From assembly GCA_902589725.1 (NCBI GenBank), contig CACITU010000005.1:24119-88118 (forward strand): a stretch of DNA of 64,000 bases, written 5' to 3'. Position 1 is the stretch's first letter. Every line of letters begins with the position of its first letter. The position numbers were made by a program, and so were the translations under genes. The notes under the pieces are model-generated. The model ran no database searches and was not told the origin of the DNA. It saw nothing but the letters and a program-made list of their open reading frames with translations. Source of the DNA: an uncultured Pelagibacteraceae bacterium. GTDB lineage: Bacteria > Pseudomonadota > Alphaproteobacteria > Pelagibacterales > Pelagibacteraceae. This document shows, piece after piece, positions 4,385 to 64,000 of the stretch.

Positions 4385-4906
4385 TTGAATAACACAAAAA
4401 TAAAAATTGGTGTATTGGGTGGATCATTTGATCCCGCTCATAAAGGACACTTAGCAATTTCGAAAGAAGCAAAGAAACGATTCAAACTCAAAAAGGTTAT
4501 TTGGGCAATTACAAAAAAAAATCCATTTAAAAAAGATAGCAAAACTTCAATTGCTCAAAGAATTAAATATTGTAAAAAAATAATTGGTACAAATTCATTT
4601 ATTAAGATCAAATTTTATGAAAAAATTATTAAATCAAATAAAACTATAAATTTAATCAATTATTTAAAAAAAAATAAAAGCATTGAAATTTATTTTTTAA
4701 TGGGTGCCGACAACCTTATTAATTTTCATAAATGGTATAAATATAAAATAATTTTAAAAAAATGTAATATTCTAGTTTTTGACAGGCATGGATATAAAAA
4801 AAATTCTTTAAAATCAAAGACATTTAAGCAAATGGGTAAGGCCAATCTAGAGTTTATTGAGTTTAATAAAGTCAACATTTCATCTTCTCAATTAAGAAAA
4901 ATTTGA
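4385..4906 (+). CDS. nadD: Nicotinate-nucleotide adenylyltransferase (TTG start)
   Basis: GVLGGSFDPAHKGHLAIS; ISSSQLRK. Confidence 0.93.
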   Translation: MNNTKIKIGVLGGSFDPAHKGHLAISKEAKKRFKLKKVIWAITKKNPFKKDSKTSIAQRIKYCKKIIGTNSFIKIKFYEKIIKSNKTINLINYLKKNKSIEIYFLMGADNLINFHKWYKYKIILKKCNILVFDRHGYKKNSLKSKTFKQMGKANLEFIEFNKVNISSSQLRKI

Positions 4907-4923
4907 TAATCTAAAATCAATCA

Positions 4924-5274
4924 ATGGACAAAATTTCAGATTTAAAAGAAATTGTAATCAGCACACTAGATCTCAATAAAGCTCAAGACATTGTAACTAT
5001 TGATCTTAAAGACAAAAGTTCTATGGCTGATTACATGATCATTGCAAGTGGAACTTCATCTAGACATATCCAATCTTTATCTGAGCAAGTTTTAGAAAAA
5101 CTAAAAAATAATGGTGTAAAAGATTCTAAAATTGAAGGCAAAGAAAGTGCTGAATGGAAACTTGTTGATGGGATTGATTTGATTATTCATATTTTTCATC
5201 CAGAAAAAAGAAAGTTTTATGAATTAGAAAAAATTTGGTCAGAGTTAATTCCAAAAGAAAAAGTGATGATATGA
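4924..5274 (+). CDS. rsfS: Ribosomal silencing factor RsfS
   Basis: Length and KSSMADYMIIASGTSSRHIQSL ... WKLVDGIDLIIHIFHPEKRKFYELEKIW. Confidence 0.94.
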   Translation: MDKISDLKEIVISTLDLNKAQDIVTIDLKDKSSMADYMIIASGTSSRHIQSLSEQVLEKLKNNGVKDSKIEGKESAEWKLVDGIDLIIHIFHPEKRKFYELEKIWSELIPKEKVMI

Positions 5275-6410
5275 AAAAAATTAAAATTTTATTATTGATT
5301 TTATTTTCTATTTTTTACTTAAACAAAAACGTTATTTCAGCTGAAATTGATATTTATAAAAAAATTGATCTTTTCGGTGAAGTTCTAGAAAAGATTAATA
5401 AAGAATATGTTGATGATTTTAATCAATCCGACAGTATGGACGCTGCAATCAATGGACTTTTACAATCGTTAGATCCTTATTCATCCTACATGTCCCCTAA
5501 AATTTTTGAGGAAATGCAAACAGAAACCAGTGGCGAGTTTGGTGGATTAGGAATTGAGGTCAGTATGGAGGCTGGTGTGGTTAAAGTAATTTCGCCAATA
5601 GATGATACACCTGCATCAAGGGCTGGATTAAAAGCTGGTGATTACATAGTCAAAATAAATGATGTTCAAGTTCAAGGAAAATCATTAAGTGAAGCTGTTG
5701 ATTTAATGAGGGGACCTGTGGGTTCCGGTATAGAATTAATAGTAAGACGAAGAGGTGAAAAAAAAGCATTAACATTTAATATAATAAGAGAAGTTATTCA
5801 GGTTAAATCTGTAAAATCTGAAATTATAAATGAAAACATTGGATACATCAGGCTTACTTCGTTTAACGATAACAGTAGTGATCAAATAGAAAAACAAATA
5901 AAAAAACTTAAAAAAGATAAAAACGTAAATTCATTTATTTTAGATTTAAGAAATAATCCTGGAGGTCTTTTATCTCAGGCAATAAAGATCTCAGATTTTT
6001 TTCTAGAAAATGGAGAGATAGTTTCAACAAAAAGCAGAACAAAATCTGAAAATAGAAAATGGTTTGCAAAAAAAGGAGATATTACTGACGGAAAAACATT
6101 ATTGGTTTTGATTAATTATGGCTCAGCATCTGCATCTGAAATTGTTGCTGGAGCTTTAAAGGATCACAAAAGAGCAATTATCATTGGTGAAAATAGCTTT
6201 GGTAAAGGTTCAGTCCAATCGATTATTCCTTTAAAAAATCGTGGAGCTATAAGATTAACTGTCGCAAAATATTATCTTCCTTCTGGAAAATCTATCTCTG
6301 AAGTAGGTGTTAGACCAGATATAGAAGTAAATGAAGAAGGTGATGATTTTAGAATAAAAACTGATACTGACAATCAATTAAACTACGCTATTAAGTTACT
6401 TAACGGATAA
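5271..6410 (+). CDS. ctpA: C-terminal processing peptidase (S41); start moved to ATG at 5271
   Basis: PDZ plus S41 core (YGSASASEIVAGALKDHKRAIIIGENSFGKGSVQ); signal peptide starts at MKKIKILLLILFSI; ATGA overlap with rsfS. Confidence 0.93.
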   Translation: MKKIKILLLILFSIFYLNKNVISAEIDIYKKIDLFGEVLEKINKEYVDDFNQSDSMDAAINGLLQSLDPYSSYMSPKIFEEMQTETSGEFGGLGIEVSMEAGVVKVISPIDDTPASRAGLKAGDYIVKINDVQVQGKSLSEAVDLMRGPVGSGIELIVRRRGEKKALTFNIIREVIQVKSVKSEIINENIGYIRLTSFNDNSSDQIEKQIKKLKKDKNVNSFILDLRNNPGGLLSQAIKISDFFLENGEIVSTKSRTKSENRKWFAKKGDITDGKTLLVLINYGSASASEIVAGALKDHKRAIIIGENSFGKGSVQSIIPLKNRGAIRLTVAKYYLPSGKSISEVGVRPDIEVNEEGDDFRIKTDTDNQLNYAIKLLNG

Positions 6411-6411
6411 T

Positions 6412-6885
6412 ATGAATAAAAATTTTAAAGATTTACCACTGAGAAGTGGGGTCGGAATAGTATTATTGAATAACCAAAATAAAGTATTTGTTGCAAAAAG
6501 AATAGATAATCCTAAAAATTTTTGGCAAATGCCTCAGGGCGGTGTTGATGAGGGAGAGGATTATTTAAAAGCAGCATTTAGAGAATTGGAGGAAGAAACA
6601 AGTATCAAAAGTGTAGAACTTATAAAGGAACTCGATGGTACATTGACTTATGATTTACCTGATCGATTACTAGGTATTATTTGGAAAGGTAAGTACAAAG
6701 GTCAAAAGCAAAAATGGTTTTTAATGCGATTTATTGGAAATGATAATGAAATAAATATTAATACATCTAATCCAGAGTTTTTGGATTGGAAGTGGATTGA
6801 CTTAGATTTAATTACTGATGTTGTAGTTGATTTTAAACATCATGTTTACAAAGAACTTAAAGAAAAAGTTAAAAAATTAATTTAG
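6412..6885 (+). CDS. rppH: RNA pyrophosphohydrolase (Nudix)
   Basis: Nudix box GGVDEGEDYLKAAFRELEEETS; WQMPQGG. Confidence 0.92.
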   Translation: MNKNFKDLPLRSGVGIVLLNNQNKVFVAKRIDNPKNFWQMPQGGVDEGEDYLKAAFRELEEETSIKSVELIKELDGTLTYDLPDRLLGIIWKGKYKGQKQKWFLMRFIGNDNEININTSNPEFLDWKWIDLDLITDVVVDFKHHVYKELKEKVKKLI

Positions 6886-7268
6886 AGATTTTAAAACTTC
6901 AACTTTTTTATCTGCTAAATACTTAGATTGATCATTAATATCGGTTTTATTAGCCTCTTCTTCTGCCTCTTTAAGTAAATCTTGTTGCTTTGATTTATCC
7001 ATATCCGTAAGATTAAAAATTGTACTTGTTAAAATAGATAAATTATTATTTTTAAACTCAACAATCCCATCTTCAACATAGTAGTTTTCGTCACCTGATT
7101 TTGATAAAATCTTAATTATCCCAGGTTTCAAAAATGAAATAATAGAAATATGATCCTTCAATATTCCCATCTCTCCTTCAAAAGCAGGGACCACAACTTC
7201 TGAAACATCATCTTTTACTAAAAAAGATTTTTCAGGATTTACTATTTCAACTTTAAACTCTTCGCTCA

Positions 7269-7269
<1 letters not shown>
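6877..7269 (-). CDS. atpC: ATP synthase epsilon subunit
   Basis: Position after atpD; VPAFEGEMGILKDHISIISFLKPG. Confidence 0.93.
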
Positions 7270-9562
<2,293 letters not shown>

Positions 9563-9568
9563 AAATTA

Positions 9569-11104
9569 TTAAGATTTAAAATTTCCTTTTAATTGAGTGA
9601 CTACCTCAACAAGTAATTTTTCTTTATCTTCCTCAAGTTTTCCTGAAGTTAAAATTGACTCTATAATTTCAGGCTTATCTGATTTACATTTTTCAATAAT
9701 CTTACTCTCAAATTCGGCAACATCTTTTAGATCAATATCATCTAGATAACCTTTTACTCCGCAAAATACTGAAATAACTTGTTCCGCAACAGTCATAGGT
9801 GAATATTGTTTTTGTTTTAAAAGTTCAGTTAATTTAGAGCCTCTATTTAAAAGTTGCTGAGTAGATGCATCTAAATCAGATCCAAATTGAGCAAAAGCTG
9901 CCATTTCTCTGTATTGTGCTAACTCTAGTTTCATTGAACCAGAAACTTTTTTCATCGCTTTAGTTTGAGCTGATGAACCAACCCTAGATACTGATAAACC
10001 TACATTAATTGCAGGTCTTATTCCCTGGTTAAATAGTTCTGTTTCAAGGAAAATTTGTCCGTCTGTAATTGAAATAACGTTAGTTGGAATGAACGCAGAT
10101 ACGTCTCCACCTTGTGTTTCAATAATTGGAAGAGCAGTAAGTGATCCACCACCATGTTCATCACTTAATTTTGCAGCTCTCTCAAGCAATCTGCTATGAA
10201 GATAAAATACATCTCCAGGATAAGCCTCACGTCCTGGAGGTCTTCTTAATAGCAATGACATTTGTCTATAAGCAACTGCTTGTTTAGATAAATCGTCATA
10301 AATTATTAACGCGTGCATTCCATTATCTCTAAAATACTCACCCATAGCACAACCTGTATACGGTGCTAAAAATTGTAAAGGAGCGGAGTCAGATGCAGTA
10401 GCAGCAACAATTGTTGTGTACTCCATAGCTCCAGCTTCTTCTAATGTTTTTTGAATTTGTCTTACTGTTGATCTTTTTTGTCCAACTGCAACATATATAC
10501 AATACAGTTTTTGTTTTTCATCTCCAGATTCATTGATTTTTTTTTGATTAATAATTGCATCTACTGCAACTGCTGTTTTACCGGTTTGTCTGTCACCAAT
10601 AATTAATTCCCTTTGCCCTCTTCCAATTGGGACCAGACTATCAATTGATTTAAGGCCAGTTTGCATTGGTTCACTCACTGATTGTCGTGGAATAATACCA
10701 GGAGCTTTAACTTCAACCCTGCTTTTTTTAATTCCTTTATCTAATGGTCCTTTTCCATCAATAGGATTTCCTAAACCATCCACTACTCTTCCTAATAATT
10801 CTTTTCCAACTGGAGTGTCAACAATATTACCAGTCCTTTTTACTACATCACCTTCTTTAACATTTCTATCATCACCAAAAATTACAACACCAACATTTTC
10901 ACTTTCTAAATTTAGAGCCATACCTTTTGAACCATCTGCAAACTCTACCATCTCACCAGCTTGGACATTATCTAAACCATAAATCCTAGCAATACCATCC
11001 CCAACTGATAAAACTTGACCAACTTCTGTGACTTCTGCTTTATCACCAAAATTTTTAATTTGTTCTTTTAATATTTTTGTAACTTCTGAAGGATTTATTT
11101 CCAT
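9569..11104 (-). CDS. atpA: ATP synthase alpha subunit
   Basis: [11 protein letters not shown]; full-length F1 alpha. Confidence 0.98.
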
Positions 11105-16143: not shown

Positions 16144-16530
16144 TTAACAATTTGAAGTAGTTAACTTATTCTTTTCGTTTAGAGTTAAAGTACAATTTGA
16201 AGATTTATGTTTTGCTTGGATACTTAAAGTATCACTAGAGGCATTACCAGTTATAGTATAATTATAATTTTGGTCTGATAAATCATCAACACCATCAAAA
16301 AGTTCATTGATTATATTATTTAATGATGAGTTGTAATAATAACTACCATTATTAGACTTATACTCTTGTTCTGCTAAATATATTGAGCTGAGACTTATTT
16401 CTGCTTGTTTTTTTTCTGCTGAAGTTTTGTATTTTCCGTATGATACTATACCTATTGCAGAGAGAATTCCTATGAGTGCAACTACAACCAAAAGTTCTAT
16501 TAATGTAAAACCTTGGCTGTAGCGCCTCAT
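16144..16530 (-). CDS. Type IV pilin-like protein (paralogue 5)
   Basis: MRRYSQG|FTLIELLVVVALIGILSAIGIVSYGKYKTSAE. Confidence 0.9.
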   Translation of the reverse strand: MRRYSQGFTLIELLVVVALIGILSAIGIVSYGKYKTSAEKKQAEISLSSIYLAEQEYKSNNGSYYYNSSLNNIINELFDGVDDLSDQNYNYTITGNASSDTLSIQAKHKSSNCTLTLNEKNKLTTSNC

Positions 16531-17061: not shown

Positions 17062-18294
17062 TTAATTAATAATTGCACCAACGTTGAATATTGGGGCATA
17101 CATAGCAAGCATTAAGCCACCAATAGTAATTCCCATAAATACGATCATTATGGGCTCAATTAAGCTTGAAAGATTACCAACCGCTACATCAAATTCCTCT
17201 TCATAATAAGTTGCAACAGAACCAAACATATCGTCAAGACTACCTGTTTGCTCTCCTACTGCAATCAATTGACTAAAAGTGGAAGGAAAAATTTTTTCTT
17301 TTCTAAATAAATCTGTCAATGTTTCTCCAGAAAAAACACCTTTCTTAATATTTTCAAGTGACTCGACTACAATAACATTATCAGTTACTGATTTTGCAAT
17401 ATCAATACTTTCTATTAAATCGACACCTGCTTGATTAAGATTACCAAGAACCATCGAAACTTTAGCAAGAATAGATTTTTGCAATAGGTTTCCAAAAACT
17501 GGTAACTTTAAAGTAAATGCATGCCAAGATTTTCTAAAGTTATAACTTTTTGCTATGAAAAATTTCATTAATACAACAATTGCTATAATTGAAATAAACA
17601 TTATCAATCCACCCGCTGATCTTAGAAAAGTACTCATAGACATAATTACAGCAGTTGGAGTTGGTAAATCATCTCCCATACCCATTCCCTCATACATATT
17701 TACAAAGGTTGGAACAACATTCATTAACATAAAAATTGTAACACCTATTGCAACTGTGAACAAAACTCCAGGATAAAAAAAAGCACTTTTAATTTGAGAT
17801 TTAATTTTTTCTTTTTTTTCTAAATTAAGAACAATTTTTTGTAAAAATATATCTAGTTTTCCACTAGCTTCTCCTGCTTTAATCAAATTAACCACAACTG
17901 TATCAAATACTTTTGGATGTTTTTCAAAACATTTTGATAATGCATTTCCAGCTTCAAGGTCTTTTTTTATGTTTTCTATGATTGTTTTCATTCCCTTAGA
18001 TGCTGTTTGTCCAATCAACATTTCAAGTGTATTTAATACTGGTAAACCAGCTCTTAACATTGTAGCAAATTGTTTACAAAAAACTAAAATATCTTTAGCT
18101 TTAACTCCTGTTCCAAATGAAAAAGAGGTTTTTTCTTTTTTTTTGATTTCTTTCTTTTTTTTTGTTTGAACTAATTTTGTAATGATTACTTTTTGTTCTT
18201 TTAATTTATGAGCTGCTTCAGAATTATTGAGTGCCTCAATTTCTCCCTCTACATATTTTCCATAAGATATACCTTTGTATTCAAAATTAAGCAT
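17062..18294 (-). CDS. pilC: Type IV pilus / type II secretion inner-membrane platform protein PilC (GspF family)
   Basis: Two T2SSF domains; FCKQFATMLRAGLPVLNTLEML, FSQLIAVGEQTGSLDDMF. Confidence 0.94.
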   Translation of the reverse strand: MLNFEYKGISYGKYVEGEIEALNNSEAAHKLKEQKVIITKLVQTKKKKEIKKKEKTSFSFGTGVKAKDILVFCKQFATMLRAGLPVLNTLEMLIGQTASKGMKTIIENIKKDLEAGNALSKCFEKHPKVFDTVVVNLIKAGEASGKLDIFLQKIVLNLEKKEKIKSQIKSAFFYPGVLFTVAIGVTIFMLMNVVPTFVNMYEGMGMGDDLPTPTAVIMSMSTFLRSAGGLIMFISIIAIVVLMKFFIAKSYNFRKSWHAFTLKLPVFGNLLQKSILAKVSMVLGNLNQAGVDLIESIDIAKSVTDNVIVVESLENIKKGVFSGETLTDLFRKEKIFPSTFSQLIAVGEQTGSLDDMFGSVATYYEEEFDVAVGNLSSLIEPIMIVFMGITIGGLMLAMYAPIFNVGAIIN

Positions 18295-19994
18295 TAATTC
18301 GATTGAAGTACTCTTTCAAATTCAGAATAACACAAATCTCCACTTAATAAGAGATCATGTCCCATTTCTTGCATAGTTCTAAAACCATTTTTTTTAGCAA
18401 TAGCATTTAGCTCTGCTTGACTCATGTCAGATAAAATTCCATGCTTTAGTTCTTTGTCAATTTCAAGAATTTCATAAATACCCATTCTTCCTTTAAATCC
18501 AGTGTTTCCACATTGGTCACAACCTTTACCTTTATAAATTTTTGCTCTTGCAGACTGTTCAGGTAAAAACCCAATCGCATTTAATAATTTTGGTGTAACA
18601 TTTTCATCTATAATTGCACACTCTGAGCAATTTTTTCTAGCTAATCTCTGTGCCATAATCAAAGTTAGTGCAGCTGAAATTAGGTAATTGGGTGTTCCCA
18701 TATTTAAAAGCCTAGTAATAGAACTTGGAGCATCATTTGTGTGAAGTGTACTGAATACCAAATGTCCAGTTAGAGATGCTTTTAACGCTATGTCCACTGT
18801 TGCTTTATCCCTTATCTCTCCAACTAATATCACTTCTGGATCTTGTCTAAGAAAAGATCTTAGTGCTGACTCAAAAGTAAAGTCTATAGCTTCTTTTACC
18901 TGAACTTGACCAACACCCTCTAATTCATATTCGACTGGATCTTCAGCTGTTAAGATATTCATACCAGGCTTATTGATATGTTTTAAAACACTATAAAGTG
19001 TAGTTGTTTTTCCACTACCAGTTGGCCCAGTTACTAAAACCATGCCCTGAGGAGAAGTTATAGCTTTAGTTAATTTTTCTAAATCTTTTGCCTCGAAACC
19101 TAGTTCACTTAATTTTTTTTCACCAGCCTCTTTATTTAAAATCCTCATAACAATTCTTTCATTATTTTTGGTAGGTAGTATCGAAACCCTTAAATCCACC
19201 TCTTTTGTATCTGATTTAAAAGTACTAGCTCCATCTTGGGGCAGTCTTCTTTCTGCAATATCTAATTTACTTATTATCTTCATTCTTGTTACAACTGCAT
19301 TATAATTTTCATAAAGAAATGAGGAATAATCTTTCATAACTCTTAAAATACCATCCACTCTAAATCTTACTTGCGCACTATCTCTAAAGCATTCAATGTG
19401 AATATCACTAGCACCTAAATTAATTGCTTCTGTAATTAATTTATTTCCAAACACTATAACTTCAGAACCTACCTCAACTAATTCATCTTTATTTTTTTCA
19501 ATTTTTTCAACTTTCACATTGGTAGATGAAATTTTTTTATTTTCTAATTTTTTAAGTCTAGCTATGAAATCATTTATATTAGAAATTGAAGCAGCATAAA
19601 GCTCTGGCTCCATCTGGGTCATAGTTTTTAAATTCTTCATCAAGCTCAATTTAGAACCATCTGGAATAGCTATTTTCAATGTTGATCCTGTAATTTCAAA
19701 AGGAACAATATGATTGTCCTCCACAAATCTTAAATCAAGAATTTTTTTTATTTTTTCGTCAATTTTTTTCTCATTTAGATCAACAATATCTAGTGAGTAT
19801 GAATTTGATAGCAATTTAAGAATTTTTTCTTCATTTGTAAGTTTCAATTCAATTGCTGTTTCAATTTTTGTTTTACCAATTTCTTTACTAGTATTATTTA
19901 TCTTAGATATAGAACTATCATTTAATGCATCGTGGTCTAAAAGCATATTTAAAATGCTTTGTTCACTCTTATTATCTAAATTAATTTTTGTCAT
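18294..19994 (-). CDS. pilB: Type IV pilus assembly ATPase PilB (GspE/MshE-like)
   Basis: Walker A GPTGSGKTTTLYS, RDPEVILVGEIRD, zinc motif CSEC...CDQC. Confidence 0.95.
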   Translation of the reverse strand: MTKINLDNKSEQSILNMLLDHDALNDSSISKINNTSKEIGKTKIETAIELKLTNEEKILKLLSNSYSLDIVDLNEKKIDEKIKKILDLRFVEDNHIVPFEITGSTLKIAIPDGSKLSLMKNLKTMTQMEPELYAASISNINDFIARLKKLENKKISSTNVKVEKIEKNKDELVEVGSEVIVFGNKLITEAINLGASDIHIECFRDSAQVRFRVDGILRVMKDYSSFLYENYNAVVTRMKIISKLDIAERRLPQDGASTFKSDTKEVDLRVSILPTKNNERIVMRILNKEAGEKKLSELGFEAKDLEKLTKAITSPQGMVLVTGPTGSGKTTTLYSVLKHINKPGMNILTAEDPVEYELEGVGQVQVKEAIDFTFESALRSFLRQDPEVILVGEIRDKATVDIALKASLTGHLVFSTLHTNDAPSSITRLLNMGTPNYLISAALTLIMAQRLARKNCSECAIIDENVTPKLLNAIGFLPEQSARAKIYKGKGCDQCGNTGFKGRMGIYEILEIDKELKHGILSDMSQAELNAIAKKNGFRTMQEMGHDLLLSGDLCYSEFERVLQSN

Positions 19995-19995
19995 A

Positions 19996-21555
19996 TTACT
20001 GTATTACTCTTGGAGCTATAAATATTAACAACTCTTTCAATTCATCAGTTTTGTTTTTACCTTTAAATAAATTACCTACTACAGGAACATCGCTTATACC
20101 TGGTGTTTTTGTGTTAGTATTATTTTTTGTATTTTTCTTTATTCCACCTATTACAACAATGTCTCCATCTGTAACTAATAATTTTGTTTTAATCTCATTA
20201 GTTGATATTCCTGGTTCATCTGCCCCAGCAATAGTTTTTGGAGCGTCATTATTAACTTGAATATCTAATAATACATTACCATCACCTATGATACTTGGTG
20301 TTACAGTTAAAGAAAGTGCCGCTTCTTTAAATTCTGTTGTTGTGGTTCCATCCGAAGTAGTTTGGTATGGAATTTGATCTCCTTGGGTAATAGTTGCTTC
20401 TTGGTTGTTTAAAGTGAATACACTTGGAGACGATAAAATCTCGTTTAATCCTAAAGACTGAAGCGCCTCTAATTCAATCTTTAATACATCTGCTCCCATC
20501 ATTTTAATAATTCCTATTCCACTAGTTGCACCTGTAATACTATTGTTTGTTACCGTTCCTGCTGCGGCGCCTAAAGTTACTCCAGCTGATGTTGTTGCAG
20601 CTCCACCAATTGTTCCTGAAATAGTAGTAGATGATGAGTCTCCTGTACCTTTCTTTGTCATGGCACCAATTCTACTACCCAGTGCTTTTGCAAAAGTAGA
20701 CGTTACATCAACTATGAATGCTTCAATTAAAACTTGTTTAGTTTTTACATCTATTTCCTTAATAACAGAATCAATAACATCTAGATCCTCTTTTTGACCT
20801 CTAACAATTATTGATCTAGTTGTGTCTTCTACTGTTATTTTTAAATTATTCATTACTGCTGCGCCCTCTTCTCCTTGGCTTGCAAATAGATCTTCCAAGG
20901 TGGTTTTTGCTTGCTCCGGACTGATATAATATAATCTGAAAATTTCAGCTAATATAGGTTCTACAGACTCTTCCAGTTCGATTTTTTTCTTTAAAACCTC
21001 TGCCCTTGCAGATTTTGCTGTTTCTTGCTCCGTAAGTTTTTCAGGTGTGTGAACTCTAATTATACCATCGGTAGCATTGATATCTGCAACAAGTGTTTTC
21101 ATATCAAGAATAGTTTGGAATGCTGTATCCCAACTCACACTATCAATTTTTGCAGTCACGGTTCCACTGACTTCATCACCAACCAATATGTTTATATTTC
21201 CTAGCTCAGCCATCAACGACATTACATAACTAAAATCAAGGCCTTGAAAATTGATACTAATTTTTTGTTTTAAATTTGTAAAATCATCAGGAATAGAGAC
21301 ATAATTTTTTACATTCTGGGTAGTAATTGTTTTTCTCTTAGTTTTAACATTATTAGAATTTTCTATTGGTTTAGGACCATCTTTTACTTTCTTCTCTATT
21401 TGTTTTTTTCCATCACTAATCACCTTGGAAGTATCAATTAATGGTTTTTCACCATGAACATTAACAGTAGGTTTCGTTGTTTCACATCCTACAATAAATA
21501 AAACAATAAAAAATAAGCTAAAAATTTTTATTACTAATTTCATTTTATCCATCAA
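19996..21555 (-). CDS. pilQ: Secretin (PilQ/MshL family), lipoprotein signal
   Basis: Lipobox-like FIVGC; secretin_N and secretin domain (LNEILSSPSVFTLNNQEATITQGDQIPYQT ... VPVVGNLFKGK). Confidence 0.92.
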   Translation of the reverse strand: MMDKMKLVIKIFSLFFIVLFIVGCETTKPTVNVHGEKPLIDTSKVISDGKKQIEKKVKDGPKPIENSNNVKTKRKTITTQNVKNYVSIPDDFTNLKQKISINFQGLDFSYVMSLMAELGNINILVGDEVSGTVTAKIDSVSWDTAFQTILDMKTLVADINATDGIIRVHTPEKLTEQETAKSARAEVLKKKIELEESVEPILAEIFRLYYISPEQAKTTLEDLFASQGEEGAAVMNNLKITVEDTTRSIIVRGQKEDLDVIDSVIKEIDVKTKQVLIEAFIVDVTSTFAKALGSRIGAMTKKGTGDSSSTTISGTIGGAATTSAGVTLGAAAGTVTNNSITGATSGIGIIKMMGADVLKIELEALQSLGLNEILSSPSVFTLNNQEATITQGDQIPYQTTSDGTTTTEFKEAALSLTVTPSIIGDGNVLLDIQVNNDAPKTIAGADEPGISTNEIKTKLLVTDGDIVVIGGIKKNTKNNTNTKTPGISDVPVVGNLFKGKNKTDELKELLIFIAPRVIQ

Positions 21556-21964
21556 TTTCTTGAATTAAATTATTCATGTATACTTGATAAAATTTGTTAT
21601 TTTCATCTTCTACAATTACATAAGATCCAAAAATTTCTACAATCGAAACATTTGAATTTAGTTTTTGATCCTCTTCAAATTTAAAAACATTTCCATCTGG
21701 TCTAGACAGAATTGCAAATTTTTTACTTTTACCAATTATTGTACCAACAAGTCTCATTCCATTTAAAATTCCAGCTTCACTATTTTGATCATTTGTATCT
21801 GTATCTATACTGTTTTGATTTTGGCCTACTGCAGCATTCCCTTGAAATGGATCAATCGCTGGTAGTTCTTCGTCATCTAACTTAACTTTTTCTTCTGACG
21901 ACACATTATTAAAGTTCAAAAGAACCAATGTTAGTATAAAAACTATTAATTTATTTATATTCAT
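21545..21964 (-). CDS. PilP/MshK-like pilus biogenesis protein
   Basis: Signal peptide, position between pilO-like gene and secretin, small periplasmic domain GMRLVGTIIGKSKKFAILSRPDGNVF. Confidence 0.75.
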   Translation of the reverse strand: MNINKLIVFILTLVLLNFNNVSSEEKVKLDDEELPAIDPFQGNAAVGQNQNSIDTDTNDQNSEAGILNGMRLVGTIIGKSKKFAILSRPDGNVFKFEEDQKLNSNVSIVEIFGSYVIVEDENNKFYQVYMNNLIQEIDG

Positions 21965-22613
21965 CTGGTAGACCTACTATTGATATTGTTCCTTTTGATA
22001 TTACCTTTCCTTGAACATCTTTTAAAACATCAATTTCCTCTTTATCAAAATTTATAACTTTTGACGAACTTGCTAAAGATCTTTTAAATTTTAAATAACC
22101 AAGAAAATTACCCATTATTTCATACTCAACTGGTATTTTGAAATATAATGCATTTTGCTGGCCATCATTATTCTCATTTTCACTAGAATTTTCAGTGTTT
22201 GAATTTGAAACTGCAACTGGATCTGCTTTTTTTAAATTTACTATTGATAAACCATTAGCTAAAGCAAAATTGCTTATATTTTGATAAAGGTCCTCCACTT
22301 CTTTTTTGCTATGAAAAAGTTTGCTATTTTTTTTGAATTCAGGTTCAAGCTTTTTAATAGTTTTTTTCAAAGTAACAATATTGGTCTTAAATTCTTCTAT
22401 TTTATTTTTATTTTCATTCATGATTAAAATTTGCTCATTTTGAAACTTCACTGTTGGTGAAACAAAAAAATAATAAATTATTAAAAAAATTAAAATTGAA
22501 AGAAAACCTATACCAAACTTGATGAGAAGCTTTTTATTGCTCATCAGATCCATTCCTTTTAGTTTTTCTACTAAATCTTTTACATCTAAATTTTTTAAAC
22601 TTCCTAAATCCAT
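21951..22613 (-). CDS. pilO: PilO/MshJ-like pilus assembly protein
   Basis: Single TM, coiled coil, ferredoxin-like PilO domain; position. Confidence 0.8.
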   Translation of the reverse strand: MDLGSLKNLDVKDLVEKLKGMDLMSNKKLLIKFGIGFLSILIFLIIYYFFVSPTVKFQNEQILIMNENKNKIEEFKTNIVTLKKTIKKLEPEFKKNSKLFHSKKEVEDLYQNISNFALANGLSIVNLKKADPVAVSNSNTENSSENENNDGQQNALYFKIPVEYEIMGNFLGYLKFKRSLASSSKVINFDKEEIDVLKDVQGKVISKGTISIVGLPDEYK

Positions 22614-22614
22614 A

Positions 22615-24852
22615 TTAACTTTGTTTTAATTTACAAAGAATTGTAAACCCTTTCTTGTTACTATTGCTATCCTGATTATCAACTTTCATTGCAACCAATG
22701 AGGCTTGATCTATCAAAGATTTTTCATTTAGATTAGAAATAAAATTTAAAATATCTTGATCTGAAAAAGCCATTCCTTCAATTGTTATATTTGATGAGCC
22801 ATCAAAACTCATTTTTGAAAAATTTACTCTTAATGGAACACTTCTAGTAATTTGTGCTAAAGCTTTATAAGAAAGAACTTGGTTTGAGTTTACAAGTTTT
22901 CCAAGCTCCAATGACTTATCCATTTCTCTTTTTTGTTTTATTAATTTTGAAAACTGGCCATTATAATTATCAAATTCCATTTGAATTGAATCAAACTCTG
23001 CTAAAATTTTCTTATTTTTGTTTATTTTTAATACTGATAGTCCTATCAAAGATATATAAATAACTGCTATTGCAATTGCTAAACCTTTAAATGCAAATCC
23101 AGAAAGAAATTTTAACCTTCCCTGTTGTCTAACTGCATCTCTATTAGGTAATAAGTTAATGTTCTTTACGGCTGTTACAAACTTATAATATCCAAATACA
23201 TCTAATTTTCGATAAGCAAGACCAATCACAGCAGCTAAGTTTGATCTATTATCTATATTAGTCTTTTCTGCATTGTAAGATGGTATTGCAACACCTTCTA
23301 AAGGATCAAAAAGAGAAAAACCAACAGTTGGCAAATTTTTTTTAAATGAAGGTATGATTGTATTGATATTTTTTAATGAACTAACAACTTGAATATTATT
23401 AATTTTATTTTCGTGTTTAGCTTCATAATCACCTATCGCCTGTTTAACTTGCATAGAGTATCTTCGAATGACAGCTTCAGATTCGTCGTTAGTTGGCCCA
23501 TCTGTAATGTTGGAAATTAAATCTTTTTCTGGCTGTCTTAAAAAAACATCAGTAATTACAGGTGTGTTGTTGTGAATAATCATCAAATAATTTTCATCAT
23601 CACTAATTTCCAATATTGCTGAATTACTATTTTGATCTATTGATTTAAATTTTGTATTGTCATGAGCATTTTTTAGAGTAAAACACTTCACATCAACAAT
23701 TACAGGATTCAAACCTGCTTTTTTTGCTATTGCAGAATATGCATTTACATCTGAAAGTTTTGAAGCTACAAATAATATTTCCATTGTATTTGTTTTTGAA
23801 TTTCTGTTAATTACTTGATGGAAAACTGAGTAGTCGTTTAAATTATCTGCTAACTGAACTAAATTTTCCCAAAGAGAATCGGTTTCAATTGCTTTTTGAA
23901 GTTCATCGTCACTCATAAGAGGACTTGTAACAACCCTGATAATTGCACTTGTAACCGGTATTGATAATGCAATATTTTTTGAGGTAATTTTTGCATTTGA
24001 CATGGCTAAAGATATTTCTTCAGCAACATAATCTTTACTCTCTAATATATTGTCTTGAACTTTGTCTTTGTCTAACAATCTGTAGGAAAATTTATCTAAA
24101 ATCCACTTTTCGTCTTTATCCTGACTTACTTGACAAACTCTAATTGCATCTTTTGATACATCTAATCCAGCTATTTCTTCACCTGCAACACTTAATTTAG
24201 AAACTCTTGATTTAAAAAAATTATTAAAAAAAGATTTTACTTTGTTTTTTGATTTTTTTTCTTGAGAGCTATCATTAGTGCTCTCTTGTGGATTATCTAT
24301 TTTAGATTTTCCCAATTTGATATTTTTTAATTTATCAAACATTGATAATTTAAATACTTTTTTAGAGCTTAAGTCATCATTTAATTGATTAAATGCGTCT
24401 GAAGACCTATCAAATGCTGATTCTTGATTAATATTACTGCCTTGTAACTGAATATTTTCATTTATCTCTTTTTCTTTAGCCTCTAATTCAATTTTGTTTT
24501 CATTTTGAGCTTCTATTTGAACATCATCAAACCATTTCTCTAAAATTGGGATAGCTTCATCTAAATCTTTAGTCCCAGATGAAGAAATTTTTTGTTTTCC
24601 ATTTATATAAAGTCTACCAACCCAGTTTTTTGACTTTAATTCGCCTTTATATTTGTCTTGTCTGACATAAATATGCAATCTTCCATCTTTTTTATGAATT
24701 ACCTCATTTAAATTTTTATCTTCTTGAATATTATCCTCTTGTTTTTTCAAGTTTGTATCATTTTCAACCTCTAATTTAACTTGTTCATTAGAATCATTAT
24801 TACTTTCAGCTGTATTTGTCTGATTTTCTAATTTTTTATCGTCTTCATTCAT
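22615..24852 (-). CDS. PilM-PilN fusion protein with extra N-terminal domain
   Basis: PilM actin-like part (EEIAGLDVSKDAIRVCQVSQDK) and PilN part (INLLPNRDAVRQQGRLKFL + TM); N-terminal ~110 aa extension. Confidence 0.9.
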   Translation of the reverse strand: MNEDDKKLENQTNTAESNNDSNEQVKLEVENDTNLKKQEDNIQEDKNLNEVIHKKDGRLHIYVRQDKYKGELKSKNWVGRLYINGKQKISSSGTKDLDEAIPILEKWFDDVQIEAQNENKIELEAKEKEINENIQLQGSNINQESAFDRSSDAFNQLNDDLSSKKVFKLSMFDKLKNIKLGKSKIDNPQESTNDSSQEKKSKNKVKSFFNNFFKSRVSKLSVAGEEIAGLDVSKDAIRVCQVSQDKDEKWILDKFSYRLLDKDKVQDNILESKDYVAEEISLAMSNAKITSKNIALSIPVTSAIIRVVTSPLMSDDELQKAIETDSLWENLVQLADNLNDYSVFHQVINRNSKTNTMEILFVASKLSDVNAYSAIAKKAGLNPVIVDVKCFTLKNAHDNTKFKSIDQNSNSAILEISDDENYLMIIHNNTPVITDVFLRQPEKDLISNITDGPTNDESEAVIRRYSMQVKQAIGDYEAKHENKINNIQVVSSLKNINTIIPSFKKNLPTVGFSLFDPLEGVAIPSYNAEKTNIDNRSNLAAVIGLAYRKLDVFGYYKFVTAVKNINLLPNRDAVRQQGRLKFLSGFAFKGLAIAIAVIYISLIGLSVLKINKNKKILAEFDSIQMEFDNYNGQFSKLIKQKREMDKSLELGKLVNSNQVLSYKALAQITRSVPLRVNFSKMSFDGSSNITIEGMAFSDQDILNFISNLNEKSLIDQASLVAMKVDNQDSNSNKKGFTILCKLKQS

Positions 24853-24876: not shown

Positions 24877-24906
24877 AATTTACTTGATTTGGATAAGATA
24901 TGTCAA
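24877..24906 (-). promoter_or_regulatory. Putative promoter of the pilMN operon TTGACA-N18-TAAATT
   Basis: TTGACA (complement of 24901-24906), TAAATT (complement of 24877-24882). Confidence 0.55.
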
Positions 24907-24910
24907 TATA

Positions 24911-25147
24911 TTTGTGTTAGAGTTAATTATTTTGTGTTAGACTACTAATCAATTGTAATTTTTTTCTTAAATTAACAAAAAAGCATGTAAAATAGTGTAT
25001 TTTAAATATATTGGATATTTTTAATATTTTTGTGTTAGAGTAATTGAGCTTTGTGTTAGAGTTTTGAGAAACAATTAGTAAAAATTTAATATAAAAAAAA
25101 AGCTTAATTTTATTGGTTTTTTAAAAATATTATTTTTGTGTTAGAGT
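24911..25147. repeat. Five direct copies of TTTGTGTTAGAGT (minus strand ACTCTAACACAAA)
   Basis: Copies at 24911-24923, 24931-24943 (AGACT variant), 25029-25041, 25050-25062, 25135-25147. Confidence 0.92.
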
Positions 25148-25156
25148 TTAACCAAT

Positions 25157-28100
25157 TTAATAATTTTCAATCCATTTTTCAAGTTGGATTTCTGTTCCTG
25201 TATCTTTTGCCTCAGATTTTCCTGTAACTAAATTATCTTTTGAAGTAAATCCACTAATATTCTTATTAGCCTCTCCAGATATTCCAACGTATAAATTATC
25301 TCCTTGTTTTACAACTTTTGATAGAACTCCTTTACCAATATTTACATTTAATAATGATTTTCCACATTTTGAATCGTAAGCTGTTAATATTGCTTTTCCC
25401 GTATTACACACATTTGTGCTCGTTGTAGGTTCATAAATAGGGAAATAAACTCTATCTTTGTCTACTGTTGGTTCAGCAGTTAATTTTTGAAAGTTTTTTA
25501 AGTTCACATACCAACCAAGATCACTATTGCTAGGACAAGTTGGTGTTGTTTTACATTTTGAAATATCTCCTGGTGTTCCAACATCAACATAATTCGGAAA
25601 ATCTTTATCTTTAATGCCATAAACTCTATTTTGAACTTGATTTGATTGTTCATAAAGTTTTTGTGTGTTTCCTGTTCCAAAATATAACCAAAGATTGTTA
25701 TCATTATTAATTGTTACTTCTGGTCGTGTAAAAATGTATCTTCCATTATCTGACGTTGATTGAGAATTAAATAATGTCGTTGAAGAAATTTTTGAAATTA
25801 CATTATTTGTTAAAGAAAAATTTTCAGTTAAATTAATTTTAGTTATTTTTCCCTCGAGATCAGAAGCATAAATTATTGCCCCATCATAATTTGCTTTAGC
25901 AGTACTATCTGCTGTTATTACACTAAGGTCAGCAGGTAAAGCATTTATAATATCTGTTTTATTAACCTTGCTTGCAATAATTGTTACATTGCTAGGAGCT
26001 CTTTCAAAATTTAATTTAAGATTGGACATTGTATTTCCATTCAATGTTCCTGTTACAGTATATTTAATATCTCCAGCACCACTAACTCTAATCTTGCAAC
26101 AATTAACATCATAAGAATTTAATCCATACTGGCCTAAACTAAACTCAGTCTTAGTATTTCCATTAGGTATTCCAAAAACATAATTATGCATAACATTTAC
26201 TTGGTCTGATATATTTATTTCTTTTAATAATTTTCCCTCATTTTCAATATCCATAACATAAACTGCAGAACCTATATCAGGATTTACTGAAGCATTGTAA
26301 CCAGCACCAAACACAGCTACCCATTTATCATTTCCACTAACTTTAATTCTAATAATTCTTGGTGTTGACCAAGTCTCACCTAATTTACTATAATTTAAGT
26401 CAGCAGCTATACTTCCAGATCCATAACTATAAATATTTTTAGCACCTGTAGAGTCCCAGTGGCTTATTTCTCTATTTGATGGATCATTTTGAATTGCAAA
26501 TAAATGTTTAGGATTATTAACATCAGTTATGTCAATAGAATAAATTGCATTTCCACCTGCCCCTATTCCACCAATTAAAATGGTTCGCCATCTTGGATTA
26601 CTAGCTCCATCATTTGGAGTATCATCAAAGTAAATATCTTTAACGACCGGAGATCCATCAATACCATATATTGCATTAGTAACATTTGCTGTTGATGAAG
26701 GTATTCTTTCTAAATTTCCAAGAATTACAGGAGGTATGTATCCCCACAATTCTTCACCATCAGATGCTCGAAAAGCGTGCAAAATACCATTATTAGCACC
26801 TGCTAAAACAACCTCGGTTCTATTACTGCAAACTCCACCACAACTTGAGCCATTTTGAAAATTATTATAATTCTTTTGAGTTCTGTAATATGCATCGGTT
26901 TTATTAAAATTAGCATTTCCAGTATCTGATGTTGGTGCCTCAGGTGCTCCTACTACTACCAATTCTGAATGATAAATATCTGCAAGTTTATGCATACTCT
27001 CTGTTTTATTTCCATCTCCATCTTGATCGTAAGTATCAACCCCTCTGATAAAATTTATTAAATTATCTACTTCGGTATTTGTAGGTGACTGGCTAGGAAA
27101 CATTAAAGCTTTTAATTCATCTCTATTAGATGTTGTAAAATTATTAAAGCCAGTAGAACTTATTCCAGAGGTCCAAATTTTTCTTGATGATGCAGATTTA
27201 TTATTTAGTTTATCTCCAGCATCCCATTGTTCTGCACCAAATGTTCCATTTGTATTAAGTTTATATTTCTTAAGTCTGCCCTTCCATTGTTTATTTTTTT
27301 CGTATTCAAATGTTGCTTGATAAATAAAATTACCTCTAGTCACATCAGACATTACAGCGGGTGTTGTAAATGTAAGTCTTCCTGAAATAGCCTGCTTAAT
27401 CGCATCAGTAAGTTTAGCTAGTAGATCAGTCTCATTCTCTGCATACAATGGCGCTTTAGTCCCTCCTTTTTCTGCTAAAGTTTTGTAATTATTATTTGCT
27501 CCACCTAAAGCAAACCCTACTGCAAAAGTTTTTACGTTATCTGATTTATTTAGTATATTTGCTATTTGAAGAACTGAGCTATGGCTACGCCAATATCCGT
27601 CACTAATAACTATTAAAAAATTTTGAGAACATGTTTTGTCCCAATTTGCTACTTGACCACTCCTAAAATAATCTCTTGCTCTATTTAGAGCATTATTTAA
27701 ATTAGTTCCTCCACTTGCATAAATACCATCAACATTTGTATAAATCTCTTTTGCTCCAGTATCGCTAATTTTAACTCTTATTCTTGTTCTACTTGAATAA
27801 GTGCTTCCCCATTCCATTAAACCAAAATTTGCTCCAGATGTTAAATCTGTATTTGATACAATTTTTTTAATTACTTTTTTTGCAGCCTCTAATCTTGTTC
27901 TTGATCCTCCAACTGATAGGGTTTCTGATCCGCTGGTATTATATTTTCTAACTGTAAAATTGTAATAATCGGTTACATAAATATTATCACTTGAGTCTAT
28001 TTCAATTCCGTAAGGATATCTAAACCCTCCAGATGTTGACCATGATCCTACTAATTTACTTTCACTACAAGTATCTGGATTAATTTTATATACAGCGTGT

Positions 28101-28906
28101 TGAGATACTGAAGTATAATAAACATTGCCTGCACTATCCCATGCAGTATCCGTGGGTCTATTTGCATTGCAATTTCTTACTCTATTATTCGCATATGGAC
28201 TGTTTTGAGCGACTAATTGGTGTCCTGATCTATAGGCTATTCTAACTTGATTTTTACTATAATTTGCATAAGCAATTCTTGTTCCTGATCTATTCCAGCT
28301 CATACCCCATATAAAACTATTTCCTGCTCCTTCGTTGTTGTAGGCGTTTCTTCCTGGATTAGGGTACATGCTAGATTTGTAATGACTTGCAATCATTTCT
28401 ACACTTCTTGGTCCTCCACTTGCCCAAGCCCATCCTCCACCGACCGCCATAGCAGTCGGATAAGATCTTAAGAGCGAATTATGTCTTGTAGTTCTGCAAG
28501 CACCATCTAATGATAGGGTAACAAACCTACTATTGTTTGTATCTGAAATATAAATCAGATCTCCATCAATATCGAATTGTCTTGCATTTCTCCATTGAGA
28601 ACAATTACTCCCGTAACCACCAAAAGATTTTAAATATTTACCTGTGCTATCAAATTTTTTTATTCTATTATTCCAATATTCAAGAACATAAATATTTCCA
28701 AACCTATCCACATTTACATCTACTGGATAATGAATTTGAACAGCACCTGCTAATCTTGCAGACATACTGCCTGAATTATCAAGCATAATTAAAATGTTTG
28801 CTGGTATGTCAGATGTACCTGTTCCGGGTGGAGGATTTTTACCTTTCACCTCAGTAAAAAATAAAGATAAAAATAAACTAAATATTATTGTTGAGAGTCT
28901 AACCAT
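25157..28906 (-). CDS. pilY1: PilY1-like pilus-tip adhesin with vWA domain, NHL-like insert and C-terminal propeller
   Basis: Signal peptide, MIDAS LIMLDNSGSMS, NHL-like repeats, vWA remainder, PilY1 propeller (WRTILIGGIGAGGNAIYSIDITD). Confidence 0.9.
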   Translation of the reverse strand: MVRLSTIIFSLFLSLFFTEVKGKNPPPGTGTSDIPANILIMLDNSGSMSARLAGAVQIHYPVDVNVDRFGNIYVLEYWNNRIKKFDSTGKYLKSFGGYGSNCSQWRNARQFDIDGDLIYISDTNNSRFVTLSLDGACRTTRHNSLLRSYPTAMAVGGGWAWASGGPRSVEMIASHYKSSMYPNPGRNAYNNEGAGNSFIWGMSWNRSGTRIAYANYSKNQVRIAYRSGHQLVAQNSPYANNRVRNCNANRPTDTAWDSAGNVYYTSVSQHAVYKINPDTCSESKLVGSWSTSGGFRYPYGIEIDSSDNIYVTDYYNFTVRKYNTSGSETLSVGGSRTRLEAAKKVIKKIVSNTDLTSGANFGLMEWGSTYSSRTRIRVKISDTGAKEIYTNVDGIYASGGTNLNNALNRARDYFRSGQVANWDKTCSQNFLIVISDGYWRSHSSVLQIANILNKSDNVKTFAVGFALGGANNNYKTLAEKGGTKAPLYAENETDLLAKLTDAIKQAISGRLTFTTPAVMSDVTRGNFIYQATFEYEKNKQWKGRLKKYKLNTNGTFGAEQWDAGDKLNNKSASSRKIWTSGISSTGFNNFTTSNRDELKALMFPSQSPTNTEVDNLINFIRGVDTYDQDGDGNKTESMHKLADIYHSELVVVGAPEAPTSDTGNANFNKTDAYYRTQKNYNNFQNGSSCGGVCSNRTEVVLAGANNGILHAFRASDGEELWGYIPPVILGNLERIPSSTANVTNAIYGIDGSPVVKDIYFDDTPNDGASNPRWRTILIGGIGAGGNAIYSIDITDVNNPKHLFAIQNDPSNREISHWDSTGAKNIYSYGSGSIAADLNYSKLGETWSTPRIIRIKVSGNDKWVAVFGAGYNASVNPDIGSAVYVMDIENEGKLLKEINISDQVNVMHNYVFGIPNGNTKTEFSLGQYGLNSYDVNCCKIRVSGAGDIKYTVTGTLNGNTMSNLKLNFERAPSNVTIIASKVNKTDIINALPADLSVITADSTAKANYDGAIIYASDLEGKITKINLTENFSLTNNVISKISSTTLFNSQSTSDNGRYIFTRPEVTINNDNNLWLYFGTGNTQKLYEQSNQVQNRVYGIKDKDFPNYVDVGTPGDISKCKTTPTCPSNSDLGWYVNLKNFQKLTAEPTVDKDRVYFPIYEPTTSTNVCNTGKAILTAYDSKCGKSLLNVNIGKGVLSKVVKQGDNLYVGISGEANKNISGFTSKDNLVTGKSEAKDTGTEIQLEKWIENY

Positions 28907-63937: not shown

Positions 63938-63960
63938 ATTTATTACGCATAGCAGTAGCT

Positions 63961-63990
63961 CACTAGTGGGCGAACCCTCGCTGACTAGTG
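63961..63990 (-). other. GC-rich nested hairpin upstream of ffh (possible structured leader or end of an upstream RNA)
   Basis: CACTAGT/ACTAGTG 7-bp stem enclosing GCGA/TCGC 4-bp stem with GGGT loop (minus strand); 18 of 30 nt are G/C. Confidence 0.5.
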
Positions 63991-64000
63991 TCGATCTCTT

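Follow-up and report, generated by a model that had tools for sequence, protein, structure and literature searches.

Sequence comparisons indicate that PilMN, a membrane-anchored platform protein of a SAR11 (Pelagibacteraceae) type IV pilus, has probably captured the arm-binding domain of an integrase, with which it would bind an array of short repeats lying before its own operon, most likely in autoregulation. Five copies of TTTGTGTTAGAGT make up the array, in a 304-bp gap that separates pilMN from a PilY1-like gene. An earlier reading of the DNA (hereafter the sequence-only reading) had ascribed these repeats to a dedicated regulator not encoded nearby; our analysis points instead to the adjacent gene, whose product, PilMN, bears a fused integrase-type domain that probably binds them, and the repeats would then serve as operators for the product of the gene that follows them.

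The repeat array upstream of pilMN

The window (the whole 64,000-nucleotide stretch analyzed here) carries a type IV pilus gene set between about 34.8 and 17 kb, all on the minus strand, running from pilin, PilD, PilT and minor pilins through PilY1 and PilMN to PilO, a protein in the PilP position, PilQ, PilB and PilC. The pilMN gene (22615–24852, minus strand) codes for a PilM–PilN fusion of 745 aa with an N-terminal extension; both domains are recognized by Pfam (PilM_2, 9e-21; PilN, 1.3e-9) and the gene lies inside the pilus cluster, as expected of a PilM/PilN protein. Downstream of it, and presumably co-transcribed, are the genes for PilO, the PilP-position protein, the PilQ secretin, the PilB ATPase and PilC (17062–22613, minus strand); the upstream neighbor encodes a PilY1-like protein of 1249 aa with a VWA domain (25157–28906, minus strand). 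The closest named relatives are uncultured Pelagibacteraceae isolates, whose PilMN is 91–93% identical. A small pilin (16144–16530) matches ComP_DUS, the receptor for DNA uptake sequences, weakly and below the Pfam cut-off (E = 0.00055), and an ffh sRNA family match lies at the window edge (63953–63999).

The gap between the PilY1-like gene and pilMN is 82% AT, and all five repeats within it have the same orientation (given here on the plus strand). Copy 1 (24911–24923) is exact, reads ACTCTAACACAAA on the pilMN strand and lies just upstream of a putative −35 box; copy 2 (24931–24943), 20 bp from copy 1, is TTTGTGTTAGACT, with one mismatch, ending in GACT; copies 3 (25029–25041) and 4 (25050–25062; 21 bp from copy 3) are exact, as is copy 5 (25135–25147), which adjoins the stop codon of the PilY1-like gene. 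The start-to-start spacings are 20, 98, 21 and 85 bp, and the sequence-only reading was correct both in the five positions and in the two pairs set about two helical turns apart. The array is not a product of chance: over 2000 dinucleotide-preserving shuffles of the 304-bp intergenic sequence, the motif with ≤1 mismatch occurred 0.0025 times on average and at most once per shuffled gap, and in 200 shuffles the maximum for any 13-mer was 3 copies, against the 5 observed. With three mismatches allowed, the window as a whole holds 42 matches, equal to the chance expectation, so that only the tight cluster is meaningful.

No further exact copy of TTTGTGTTAGAGT was found elsewhere in the 1.2-Mb assembly, all exact and near-exact copies lying in the pilMN gap; scattered extra matches in the genome, counted at 1 mismatch and with the integrase variant of the motif (see below) included, number 3, against 7 for a reversed-pattern control. 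This confinement, together with the conservation described below, supports the earlier view that the array is dedicated to the pilus locus and is predicted to bind a protein. The two results that the sequence-only reading named as refuting it, a motif frequent elsewhere in the genome or missing from the corresponding gaps of relatives, were both looked for and did not occur. The confinement also bears on a reading of the repeats as DNA uptake sequences or as an RNA element, which we regard as scarcely credible. Pilus genes that could serve uptake do lie nearby, including that for the pilin with the weak ComP_DUS match, but DNA uptake sequences are abundant, with hundreds of copies across a genome, whereas here five copies sit at one locus; as for an RNA element, the sites occur in both orientations among relatives and upstream of the putative promoter, and an RNA family search found no match at the array.

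Co-occurrence of the array and the PilMN N-terminal domain

Among relatives, PilMN comes in a long form of 699–847 aa, which has the N-terminal extension, and a short form of 569–593 aa, which lacks it. In the orthologous intergenic regions at least four sites were found for all 52 of the 52 long-form loci with at least 300 bp of upstream DNA, mostly as 5–9 copies in both orientations, and for none of nine short-form loci was any site found; many of the genomes compared are incomplete single-cell or metagenome assemblies. The locus L063 has no site, but its contig begins 144 bp before the first in-frame ATG, inside an open frame. In one example of the recurring layout the sites stand, relative to the ATG, at R−344, R−323, R−238, R−217, F−192, F−76, F−53 and F−32 (R and F being the two orientations); the window clade is unlike the other relatives in that all of its copies point in a single direction. 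Neighboring same-direction copies are 20–23 bp apart in 184 cases, 21 bp being the commonest distance, and the two-turn spacing seen in the window is thus conserved; inverted R–F pairs are 25–26 bp apart in 40 cases. Over 391 copies from 59 loci the core TTGTGTTAGA is 98–100% conserved, with random A/T in the flanks; selection of these copies at ≤2 mismatches inflates the conservation of the core but does not explain its sharp edge.

The extension contains a domain of about 60 residues (VIHKKDGRLHIYVRQDKYKGELKSKNWVGRLYIDGKQKISSSGT to NLDEAIPILEKWFDD) that is almost invariant and is flanked by hypervariable low-complexity linkers. In the window this candidate DNA-binding domain, homologous to the N-terminus of tyrosine recombinases, covers PilMN residues 51–111 (24520–24702, minus strand); in L105–L107 it is found at the extreme N-terminus of PilMN. 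PilN is a bitopic membrane protein with its N-terminal side in the cytoplasm and the extension should, therefore, face the DNA. Apparent frame breaks were seen in the variable linker of two long-form pilMN genes (L068 and L138), either sequencing errors or real pseudogenes; in L138 the array is retained despite the break. The domain was detected in 43 of the 248 Pelagibacterales genomes searched, nearly all matches falling in long frames of PilMN size. In a tree of the PilMN core the short clade is nested within the long-form diversity, which requires two or more changes, with array and domain changing in step; two outgroup short rows in this tree are very distant, so that its root is unsure. 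Between the window clade and the main clade, the domain is 91.6% identical and the PilMN core 50%. These figures weigh against the array and the domain being a functionless relic of an integrated element, with the sites as old attP arms: both are indeed integrase-like, but site core and domain have remained almost unchanged while the PilMN core has fallen to about 50% identity, and the domain is in frame within PilMN in many genomes from three genera, which makes a relic very unlikely.

What lies upstream of pilMN varies by clade: the window clade has PilY1 there, L105 has a pilT operon in divergent orientation, and L053 and L059 have unrelated genes that run in the same direction as pilMN (regions compared: L105, 4083–5490; L012, 306–1450; L018, 307–1459). 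In the short-form clade a divergent pilT also lies upstream of pilMN, yet there is no array. The array follows pilMN and not its upstream neighbor. PilY1, examined as a possible partner of the array, was rejected, since only the window clade has it upstream of pilMN.

The same domain and a one-base variant of the site in tRNA-Leu integrase elements

The domain also starts a protein of 418–423 aa in two genomes, G107 and G243, these being the only two close integrases known. A tyrosine recombinase domain was recognized in the G107 protein (Phage_integrase, E = 1.3e-7), with which the G243 protein shares 69% identity; the domain of PilMN is 56–58% identical to the N-termini of the L103 and L104 proteins, the C-terminus of which is Phage_integrase. 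This homology to a tyrosine recombinase N-terminus makes the PilMN domain a candidate arm-binding domain. In the window PilMN, Pfam finds PilM_2 and PilN only and no tyrosine recombinase catalytic domain; PilMN uses an integrase-type domain but is no recombinase. Outside the Pelagibacterales, two credible profile matches (E 0.001–0.004) were obtained, both to recombinase-like N-termini, one of them in a protein with accepted integrase domains and the other in a protein with only a sub-threshold match. A third weak match, to an amidophosphoribosyltransferase-like protein, looks like chance. The domain alone returned nothing useful from Pfam, NCBIfam or PDB sequences, only weak families of unknown function from PHROGs, and only marginal matches, in Vibrio phages, from a phage collection. 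Its predicted structure (pLDDT 85) has the order b-b-b-b-a; the known arm-binding domain fold is a three-stranded sheet plus a helix. A fold search against the PDB gave no significant match, and assignment to the arm-binding domains is accordingly based on homology in sequence and on context; the best match of the model in a viral library was an intron endonuclease (E = 0.014).

Both integrases lie in elements of about 5 kb inserted in a tRNA-Leu gene, the insertion being read from the split tRNA at the two ends, and a second, intact tRNA-Leu is found inside each element just after the integrase. The L103 element occupies about 4540–9590 (reverse complement) and has a counterpart in L104; along with the tyrosine recombinase, both encode a second site-specific recombinase, which looks serine-type. 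Relatives of the element integrase were not found in the phage collection. The element ends carry the pil motif with one base changed, TTTGTGTAAGAGT; those of L103 carry ACTCTTACACTACTCTTACACAAA, the unit of which, ACTCTTACACAAA, differs from the pil motif ACTCTAACACAAA at a single base. The L103 end pair emerged as an exact direct repeat independently of the pil motif; the other shuffle tests on element ends use the variant taken from L103 and are partly circular, and the base that distinguishes integrase sites from pil sites is taken from one of the two integrases. The sites are present at both ends of the elements, just inside the att region, and look as arm-type sites should. In the G107 genome, 9 of the 11 matches at ≤1 mismatch fall in the pilMN array (6) or in the integrase element (3). 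Domain and site family thus occur together in two unrelated settings, which argues more strongly than anything else for recognition of the site by the domain.

PilMN and its array resemble the arm-binding domain and arm sites of tyrosine recombinases in the homologous domain, in the short sites repeated in tandem near a gene start and in the nearly identical site sequence; they differ in that PilMN lacks the catalytic part and the pil locus lacks an att core, and in that arm-type sites come as tandem pairs 11 bp apart, whereas the pil array has 5–9 sites 20–23 bp apart. With the PilM–PilN pair of type IV pili (as a GspL-like fusion) PilMN shares the PilM_2 and PilN domains and the order PilMN–PilO–PilP position–PilQ, but in the SAR11 long form an integrase-type domain is added at the N-terminus, which the short-form clade lacks; to our knowledge, the usual PilM has no such domain. 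No description of a pilus protein with an integrase domain turned up in a search of open-licence papers, which supports novelty only weakly. PilMN and the array would be a specific protein–DNA pair, made of a domain of about 70 residues and a 13-bp site, and, if the proposal is correct, a clear instance in which the arm-binding domain of an integrase and the site it targets together perform a cellular task.

Site placement and the putative role of PilMN at the array

The putative pilMN promoter (24877–24906, minus strand) is formed by TTGACA (24901–24906), an 18-bp spacer and TAAATT (24877–24882). This promoter, proposed in the sequence-only reading, stands in part: it is present and is kept in the three closest relatives, L045–L047, but the scan as a whole found 5 promoter-like sites against 5.0 expected, that is, chance level, and support for it thus comes from conservation and not from the scan score. 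The distance from TTGACA to the ATG is the same in the sister clade, L105–L107. The promoters of all clades were predicted from a weak consensus and the calls are tentative; on these predictions, the sites are adjacent to the promoter in the window clade, just upstream of the −35, and overlap it in L105–L107 (TTGACA-N17-TATTGT, with one site in the spacer and another overlapping the −10 region). In the main clade they are downstream of it: a −10-like box near −88 in many members puts the proximal sites at or after the probable start, and their orientation is reversed. Since placement relative to the promoter is not conserved across clades, the cooperative-activator geometry that had been suggested for the window fails, and activation accounts for the family as a whole no better than repression or looping does. 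An activating transcription factor encoded elsewhere that binds the array, with the PilMN extension unrelated to it, is accordingly improbable; the two-turn spacing beside the −35 in the window clade would suit an activator, but the variable placement and orientation, the strict co-occurrence of array and PilMN domain, and the joint presence of the same domain and nearly the same site in integrase elements all speak against it.

Autoregulation by PilMN appears to be the likeliest role of the PilMN–array pair, by analogy with the integrases themselves. Integrases commonly repress their own genes through promoter sites, as does KplE1 IntS, which represses its gene via attL sites overlapping its promoter (PMC2951348), and autorepression would thus be the most likely form. 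In both cases the promoter of a gene is overlapped or flanked by sites for the product of that gene, promoter and binding alike being predicted for pilMN; the pilMN case differs in having a pilus operon as target and a membrane-anchored machine part as putative regulator. From these comparisons we infer that the arm-type domain, borne on a flexible cytoplasmic N-terminal linker of PilMN, would physically recognize the core TTGTGTTAGA, that several PilMN molecules would occupy the 20–23-bp spaced copies around the operon promoter, with distal sites perhaps helping via looping or cooperative binding, and that bound PilMN would feed back on transcription of the pilMN operon, most likely by repressing it once there is an excess of PilMN. 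The streamlined genomes of SAR11 encode few regulators, and pilus use in this group is poorly known; if PilMN binds its own operator, it would form a one-protein feedback loop with no need for a dedicated regulator. ToxR and CadC are membrane-integrated one-component regulators, and PilMN would be like them in joining a DNA-binding domain (a candidate one in PilMN) to a bitopic membrane protein that extends into the periplasm; it differs in that the DNA-binding domains are unrelated and in that the membrane part of PilMN is a structural piece of the pilus and not a dedicated sensor.

The lack of a fixed promoter geometry would also suit a DNA tether, in which the PilMN domain, with no role in transcription, holds the pil locus or the chromosome at the pilus base, either for co-localized expression and assembly or as a centromere-like anchor. 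The attachment of the domain, through long variable linkers, to a machine part anchored in the membrane, the single array per genome and its many widely spaced sites are in line with this; against it, the sites cluster at the promoter region of pilMN itself and overlap the putative promoter in L105–L107, as an operator would, and there is no known need for a tether, which we consider unlikely. A broader proposal, to which we would give a little less than an even chance, is that an inner-membrane part of the pilus doubles as a sequence-specific DNA binder through an arm-binding domain domesticated from an integrase, and that the assembled base in this way physically holds its own gene cluster or reports its assembly state to it; if true, the pilus base would be tied to its own genes in one of the most abundant bacterial groups of the ocean. 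A second conserved block, about ACCCATTTTGAACAT, is found in the main clade (L048, L053, L016, L066 and L110), upstream of the proximal sites and about 100 bp before pilMN; it could be a promoter or another binding site.
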